NCBI GenBank assembly: GCA_016188575.1 | Contig: JACPHN010000195.1 | Span: 1 to 52,745, forward strand | Direction of reading: 5' to 3' | Source: Candidatus Schekmanbacteria bacterium | Lineage (GTDB): Bacteria; CSSED10-310; JACPHN01 | Length of the DNA stretch: 52,745 nucleotides | Part shown: in pieces, positions 34,158 through 36,623 of the stretch | Numbering within the stretch: position 1 is the stretch's first letter | Layout: every line of letters starts with the position of its first letter | Position numbers and translations under genes: made by a program | The notes under the pieces: model-generated | The model's input: the letters and a program-made list of their open reading frames with translations, nothing else | Databases searched by the model: none | What the model was told of the DNA's origin: nothing

Positions 34158-36623
34158 ATGTCCGACGCGGATGCCCCCAACATCGCGACGAGCTCCCCTG
34201 TGAATGGGGAAACGTATACTGCCGAGCGCATCAAGGTGCTGAGTGGCCTGGACGCGGTGCGCAAGCGGCCGGCAATGTACATCGGCAGCACCGGCGAAGA
34301 CGGTCTGCATCATCTGGTGTGGGAAGTCGTCGACAACTCCGTCGACGAGCATTTGGCTGGCGTCTGCATGAATATCGACGTCACGGTCCACATCGATAAT
34401 ACGATTACGGTTGTCGACGATGGTCGCGGTATCCCGGTCGACATGCATCCACAAGAGAAAAAGAGCGCCGCTGAAGTTGTTATGACAGTTCTTCACGCAG
34501 GCGGGAAATTCGACAACAAGAGTTATAAAGTATCCGGTGGGTTGCACGGAGTTGGTGTATCTGTTGTAAATGCACTCAGCGAATGGTTGAAACTTGAGAT
34601 CAGAAGAGATGGGAATGTATATGAACAATCATACAAAAGGGGAGTTCCAACAAGCGATTTAAAGCAAGTTGGGCGGACAGATAAAAGGGGAACGAAAACA
34701 GTATTCAAGCCTGATGCAGAGGTATTTGAAGTAACCGAGTTTTCTCTGGAAACTCTTATTACGCGCCTCAGAGAGCTGGCTTTTCTCAATCGCGGCCTAC
34801 ATATCAGGCTCGATGATGAACGTCTGGACAAGTCGTATGAATTCTACTACGAGGGCGGAATCGTATCCTTTATCGAGCATCTCAACAGGAACAAGGAAGT
34901 AGTACACAGAGAAGTCCTATATTTCCAGCGGGAAATTAATAACCTCGGTGTTGAGTTCGCGCTACAATATAATGACGGATACAATGAAACGGTGTTTTCA
35001 TACGTCAATAACATCAACACCCGAGAAGGTGGCACTCATCTTTCCGGATTCAAGGCCGCCTTGACGCGCGTGATCAACGCCTACGCCGAACGCGACAATG
35101 CCTTGAAGAACGCCAAGGTGTCGCTTGCCGGTGATGACGTTCGCGAGGGGCTCGTCGCCGTTGTCAGCGTCAAGGTGCAGGATCCCCAGTTCGAGGGCCA
35201 GACCAAGGCGAAGCTCGGAAATTCGGACGTCAAGGGACTGGTCGACAGCGTCGTCTACGACTGCCTGAGCGAGTATGTCGAGGAAAACCCGGCGGTGGCG
35301 AAGGCGATCGTTGGCAAGGCGATTACGGCAGCGCGCGCGCGCGAAGCGGCCAAGCGAGCGCGCGAGCTGACGCGGCGGAAAGGAGCGCTCGAAAGCGGCG
35401 GCTTGCCCGGAAAGCTCGCGGATTGTCAGGAGCGCGATCCCGCGCACTGCGAAATCTATATCGTCGAGGGCGATTCCGCCGGCGGTAGCGCCAAACAGGG
35501 GCGTGATCGTAGAAACCAGGCGGTTCTACCGCTGCGCGGCAAGCTCCTCAACGTCGAGAAGTGCCGCTTTGACCGTATGCTCGGCAATGAAGAGATCCGC
35601 ACGCTCATTCAAGCGCTTGGAACCGGCATTGGCGCTGACGACTTCGACATCGGCAGGATCCGCTATCATCGGGTCATCATCATGACGGACGCGGATGTCG
35701 ACGGCAGCCACATTCGGACGCTGCTGTTGACGTTCTTTTATCGACAAATGCCCGAAGTGATCGCACGGGGACATCTGTTCATCGCGCAACCGCCGCTTTT
35801 CCGCATTGCTCGCGGCAAGATGGAGCGATATCTCAATACCAATGACGAATTCGAAACGTTGATGCTCGAGTTCGGCTGCGCGGAGACATCGGTGGCAATC
35901 GAACGAGACGGGCAGCCAGATGCGCTGATAGGCGACGCGCTTTTCCGGATACTCTCGCAAGCCACACGCATGGAACGGGTGCTCAGGATCATGGAGCGCC
36001 GGGGTTGGATCCCATCGGTGATTCGCTGCTTGCTCGCGGGATCGCGGACGGACCTCGAGGCATTGCAGTCGCCGCAGGCGGCAACGGAGCTGGGTAACGA
36101 GGTGGCGAGACTCTACGCCCGGCTGTATCCTCAATTTCAGATGCTCGGCTTCGATATCGTCGAAGACGTTGAGCATGGTTGCTCGGGGTTGCGCTTCAAG
36201 TTCCGCGAGGACGACGCCGAGCAGCTCTTTCTGTTGTCTCACCAGGTTGTGAGCTCGCCCGAGTTTCGCGAGCTCGCGGCGCTGGCCGCTCGCACCGGAA
36301 CCATCGGCTTGCCGCCCTACTTGCTACGCGTTGGCAAGGGAGACGAAGAGACGTGCGCAAGTCTCGCGGCGCTCATCGATCGAGTGCTGCAGCAAGGGCG
36401 CAAGGGATTTACGGTGCAGCGCTACAAGGGTCTGGGCGAAATGAACGCCGACCAGCTCTGGAGTACGACCATGAATCCGGAAACCCGCCGGTTGCTTCAG
36501 GTGCAGATTGAGGACGCCGTGGAGTCGGACGAGATCTTCAGCATCTTGATGGGAGATCAGGTCGAACCGCGCCGGGAGTTCATCCAAGAGCACGCACTTG
36601 CCGTCAGAAACCTCGATATCTGA
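34158..36623 (+). CDS. gyrB: DNA gyrase subunit B
   Basis: 821 residues, the ATPase subunit of gyrase. GHKL ATPase motifs ([35 protein letters not shown]), the transducer domain, and Toprim motifs ([29 protein letters not shown]) are all intact, as is the C-terminal [15 protein letters not shown]. The long insert in the Toprim part resembles Gram-negative GyrB. AGGAGG precedes the ATG. Codon use changes abruptly between about 34441 and 35040 (residues ~95-294): AT-rich codons such as AGA, AAA, GTA, TTA and ATA replace the GC-rich set used in the rest of the gene, while the reading frame and motifs are preserved. Confidence 0.97.
34441..35040 (+). other. Low-GC mosaic segment inside gyrB
   Basis: By hand count these 600 bases hold 264 G+C (about 44%), with 60-base lines between 40 and 50%. 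A line just before it (34381) counts 55%, the line just after (35041) 60%, and a line further into gyrB (35281) 68%. The segment covers the end of the ATPase domain and the transducer. The encoded protein is a normal GyrB, so the change is mostly synonymous. Homologous replacement from a low-GC donor, or a chimeric metagenome assembly across conserved gyrB sequence, would both give this. Confidence 0.85.

Follow-up and report, generated by a model that had tools for sequence, protein, structure and literature searches.

A base-composition mosaic within an intact gyrB gene, probably an intragenic recombination tract

What could account for a low-GC stretch of several hundred bases inside a gyrase gene that is otherwise GC-rich and codes for a complete protein? 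The question is raised by gyrB in the window, by which we mean the whole stretch of DNA analysed here, a single entire contig (C39) of 52,745 bases with a G+C content of 0.642. The contig belongs to a 9.2-Mb genome in 275 contigs (completeness 93.8%, contamination 3.7%), whose closest compared relatives have only the phylum in common with it. No 16S gene was found in the 9.2 Mb; for this reason the genome is read as a metagenome bin, which it evidently is. The gene is flanked by recF and gyrA, with dnaN further upstream (Table 1). Its product scored above the cut-offs of both NF011501 (NCBIfam; E = 0, 1158 bits, cut-off 796) and TIGR01059 (2e-303, 1007.6 bits, cut-off 882.4), and the Pfam domains HATPase_c, DNA_gyraseB, Toprim and DNA_gyraseB_C were all recognized in it.

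Table 1. Position of gyrB, its neighbours and the parts of the low-GC segment in the window
Feature	Position	Strand	Description
dnaN (sliding clamp)	31893-33032	+	Pfam DNA_pol3_beta, three domains; host-like GC3 except for a mild dip
recF	33035-34156	+	Pfam SMC_N; host-like composition in the GC3 profile
gyrB, DNA gyrase subunit B	34158-36623	+	821 aa, long-insert type (PRK14939), single copy of its kind
5' junction zone	34362-34473	+	95% limits from the breakpoint profile; holds the ATP-site motif DDGRGIP (34416-34436)
Low-GC segment, aa 80-297	34395-35048	+	Late GHKL ATPase domain, including the ATP lid, and start of the transducer
Segment, first half	34395-34760	+	Five-segment fit; strongest shift, GC3 0.37-0.39; z = -7.7
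Segment, second half	34761-35048	+	Five-segment fit; partial shift, GC3 0.53; z = -4.2
3' junction zone	34977-35067	+	95% limits from the breakpoint profile; holds the conserved [12 protein letters not shown] (35016-35051)
gyrA	37918-40476	+	Pfam DNA_topoisoIV and DNA_gyraseA_C; GC3 0.81, host-like

A preliminary description of the sequence had put the G+C content of gyrB at about 44% over 600 bases, and the value at 34441-35040 is indeed exactly 0.440. The low-GC patch itself is thus confirmed, but its 5' end had been placed too far downstream. When the ends were set by a three-segment maximum likelihood fit to GC3 along gyrB, with model choice by BIC, the best-fit segment (~650 bases) reached about 45 bases further 5' and had a G+C content of 0.448, compared with 0.609 for the remainder of gyrB. 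Three segments (BIC 983.8) were clearly better than one (1023.6) or two, and models with at least four were unsupported (989.4 for four). GC3 switches twice, from 0.79 (34158-34394) to 0.44 within the segment and back to 0.75 (35049-36620). The use of arginine codons changes as well: AGA and AGG, which are rare in the 9.2-Mb genome (3828 of 44587 arginine codons in the part sampled), account for 8 of 14 in the segment and for 5 of 54 in the rest of gyrB, an enrichment with a Fisher p of 6e-6. The switch in codon choice had been called complete, which overstates it: the first half of the segment shows a strong change and the second a partial one (Table 1); in the second, the low GC is partly a matter of the amino acids that gyrBs in general encode in this region. 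Division of the segment into halves was not favoured by BIC, and two tracts from two donors were rejected on that ground. A mild GC3 dip (0.53-0.63) was also seen in dnaN at 32433-32700; it is far weaker than the gyrB patch.

Such a pattern might be of vertical origin, the segment having always been part of the gene and its GC having been lowered by local mutation bias or by an overlapping signal. Comparison with other genes makes this unlikely. In an alignment with 142 other gyrBs, the GC3 of the outer part predicts that of the inner part (r = 0.98) and none of the 142 shows the dip, whereas the inner GC3 of the window gyrB falls below the expectation given by these genes with z = -7.5 (the z values of its halves, from the same comparison, are in Table 1). 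Amino-acid composition is shifted in the same direction, which also speaks against a vertical origin: GC at codon positions 1 and 2 of the segment is 2.5 SD low relative to the outer part, and the encoded residues therefore look AT-richer. A comparable dip was absent from the sampled gyrBs of the same phylum, and the largest GC3 dip found elsewhere (-0.19, in L085), which is the next deepest among high-GC3 gyrBs, is about half as deep as that of the window. The L085 contig is labelled Candidatus Bathyarchaeota, but both trees described below place its gyrB with Syntrophorhabdaceae and relatives, so that the contig is probably mis-binned; its dip is located in the same part of gyrB as the patch in the window.

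The rest of the genome was surveyed with an intragenic low-GC score, and nothing comparable was found in 957 long frames (2.03 Mb), again in disagreement with a vertical origin. The gyrB patch has the highest score (63.8). The next two patches (51.5 and 39.2) start right at the 5' boundary of their stop-to-stop frames and resemble extensions that are untranslated or out of frame; among patches that begin deeper in one of the 957 frames, the closest competitor of gyrB scores ~32. In terms of G+C content alone, the gyrB patch ranks 6th among 12 stretches of 600 bp with <47% GC in 1.95 Mb of the genome. Equally AT-rich stretches of 600 bp (42-43% GC) occur at L237:5533, L228:2613, L146:3479, L164:2812 and L145:12687. 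What is odd about the patch is its location in a conserved housekeeping gene, not its AT-richness alone.

The protein shows no damage. Alignment with E. coli gyrase and the Pfam matches bore out the earlier reading that the patch spans the ATPase/transducer part (Table 1) and entails no loss of protein motifs: the reading frame, the motifs and the catalytic residues are intact across the segment. The latter corresponds approximately to residues 66-282 of E. coli GyrB, and its motifs [32 protein letters not shown] and EGGTH are all present in that alignment. GHKL ATPase, transducer, Toprim and C-terminal domains follow each other in the usual order. As in ordinary GyrB (TIGR01059, PRK14939; E. 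coli 6rks/7z9c), ATP-site and Toprim motifs and the long-type insert are in place, and the one difference is the base composition of aa 80-297. To judge from its sequence, the hybrid is presumably an ordinary working gyrase B subunit, given the strong conservation of GyrB and a frame that the proposed exchange left undisturbed. No sign of new function was found in the mosaic gyrB.

The preliminary description had also suggested selection by gyrase-targeting compounds. In this scenario, the segment would have been imported and retained because it confers resistance to an inhibitor of the gyrase ATPase, for example an aminocoumarin. It does include the ATPase part that contacts novobiocin through Arg136, a residue whose mutation in E. 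coli leads to novobiocin resistance (PMC7556816). However, no substitution was found at Arg136 or at neighbouring binding residues: R150 (E. coli Arg136), G178 (G164) and T179 (T165) are all unchanged, as is the ATP-site motif DDGRGIP. Drug selection is therefore unsupported, and we regard it as extremely improbable.

If the segment came from elsewhere, its source might be recognizable. The best protein matches of the inner segment reach 64-67% identity and come from many phyla (among the matches listed), and the best identity for the outer part is ~70%. No donor was found by protein comparison, first in 386 whole genomes and afterwards in 46, nor among the listed matches to genome contigs. 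Viral contigs gave no match to the segment, and DNA comparison with plasmids and phages gave only short matches in the conserved lid motif. Two candidate leads were set aside. The inner part leans toward the phylum of genome G275, but to an ordinary extent (an excess of 3.1 against a mean of 2.6 and an SD of 1.9 when other gyrBs served as queries). The second topoisomerase B copy (on C112, 51% identity overall) was judged an improbable source of gene conversion, the genome being high-GC.

Inner and outer parts were placed in separate trees, a check that the preliminary description had proposed. In both, the window fell on an isolated branch outside the strongly supported groups, with similarly long end branches for the two parts (0.34-0.39 and 0.45). 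The first trees were built with minus-strand loci excluded, and repeats that included these loci had the same outcome; the fixed-tree placement and the control conflict test, both described next, also excluded them. When the reference tree was kept fixed, the position preferred by each part was rejected by the other (AU 9e-5 and 0.0025). This apparent incongruence was not retained, as control gyrBs gave equal or larger conflict: joint placement cost 7.3 log units for the window and 0-16.2 (median ~5) for 19 control gyrBs. A vertical origin draws what support it has from these results, namely from a conflict no greater than in the controls, from the comparable isolation of both parts and from the existence of deep placements that suit both (36 of 213 placements were rejected by neither part). 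The phylogeny speaks neither for nor against a separate origin, because the signal of gyrB at this depth is too low and close relatives are unsampled.

Further observations were made on the reference sequences. The gyrBs on contigs labelled Woesearchaeota (L060, L088, L104 and L107) sit among bacterial gyrBs, which may reflect transfer or mis-binning. In several genomes of one phylum, gyrB is interrupted after GDSAGG, and long frames occur in L304, G387, G407 and G415. The L304 gyrB, on the minus strand, has a frame of 972 aa whose insert starts with C and ends with VHN, like a small intein.

Both switches in composition could also be the work of the assembly, as the preliminary description had noted. 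Part of the gyrB of another organism may have been joined to that of the host where two stretches are conserved, or the assembled molecule may have been a library chimera. That the genome, in which 16S was not found, is evidently a metagenome bin with some contamination fits such a chimera; so does the proximity of both junction zones to conserved gyrB motifs, and the same mosaic was seen in no independent genome. On the other hand, a chimera would have to change source twice within 650 bases, in frame each time. The longest exact word near either junction that is common to the window and any of 143 other gyrBs is 15-19 bases, whereas the k-mers usual in assembly are 21 or more, which makes a chimera less likely. 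The genome is also without a second copy of the segment, and low-GC contigs were not seen in the bin: GC was 62-69% in every sampled contig whose sequence could be read, and a low-GC contaminant is thus not visible. We take a chimeric assembly to be a serious but doubtful alternative.

The explanation that we favour, and hold to be probable, is intragenic recombination (gene conversion), the patch being a tract from a lower-GC donor. The arguments in its favour are the two switches, the concordant shifts in codons and amino acids, the seamless frame, the ends close to motifs and the rank of the patch as the top outlier in the sampled part of the genome. The suggestion of a recombined allele from a low-GC donor, made in the preliminary description, thus finds support in composition; a donor was not found in the searches above, and the conflict between inner and outer parts is within the control range. 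In the proposed sequence of events, DNA of a lower-GC bacterium would have replaced ~650 bases of the resident gyrB by homologous recombination, with crossovers in or near the conserved motifs DDGRGIP and [12 protein letters not shown]. The donor genome would have had roughly 50% GC and a GC3 of about 0.4-0.5. The exchange would have preserved the frame, the hybrid retaining every ATPase and transducer motif, and may well have been functionally neutral. With the donor unsampled, the exchange would be an old one or would involve a lineage that is as yet undescribed. Between genes that differ as much as those sampled, homologous recombination would be strongly disfavoured. The donor would therefore have been closer than any sampled gene, or the joining would have been partly illegitimate. 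It is quite improbable that the ATPase/transducer segment of this essential gyrase subunit was swapped with that of a very distant lineage, by homologous replacement within a housekeeping gene on a phylum scale in a deep-branching large-genome bacterium.

How does this gene compare with known mosaics? In naturally transformable bacteria, mosaic penA or parC genes carry tracts of several hundred bases whose donors are close relatives and whose selection by drugs is known. The window gyrB resembles them in that a short tract of several hundred bases appears to be replaced inside a gene, and differs in that neither a donor nor drug selection was found for it. A closer parallel in terms of the gene is provided by smooth tubercle bacilli, in which mosaic gyrB and gyrA alleles have been described (PMC1238740). 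There too, blocks of intragenic recombination in gyrase genes are seen as patches in housekeeping genes. However, the parental alleles in those bacilli are known, belong to one species and are nearly identical (PMC1238740), whereas here the parent was not found; moreover, unlike the mosaics of the bacilli, the patch described here has a base composition unlike that of the remainder of gyrB.

Mosaic gyrase genes are therefore already known, and the window gyrB is an unusual composition mosaic in an intact gyrase gene. If it proves to be an assembly chimera, it would expose a marker gene of poor quality in a bin that nonetheless passes the completeness checks. If it is real, it would be a further instance of sub-gene exchange in a widely used phylogenetic marker, in a lineage known only as a metagenome bin; it would call for caution with gyrB trees in this lineage and would bear on the limit of divergence at which genes can recombine.
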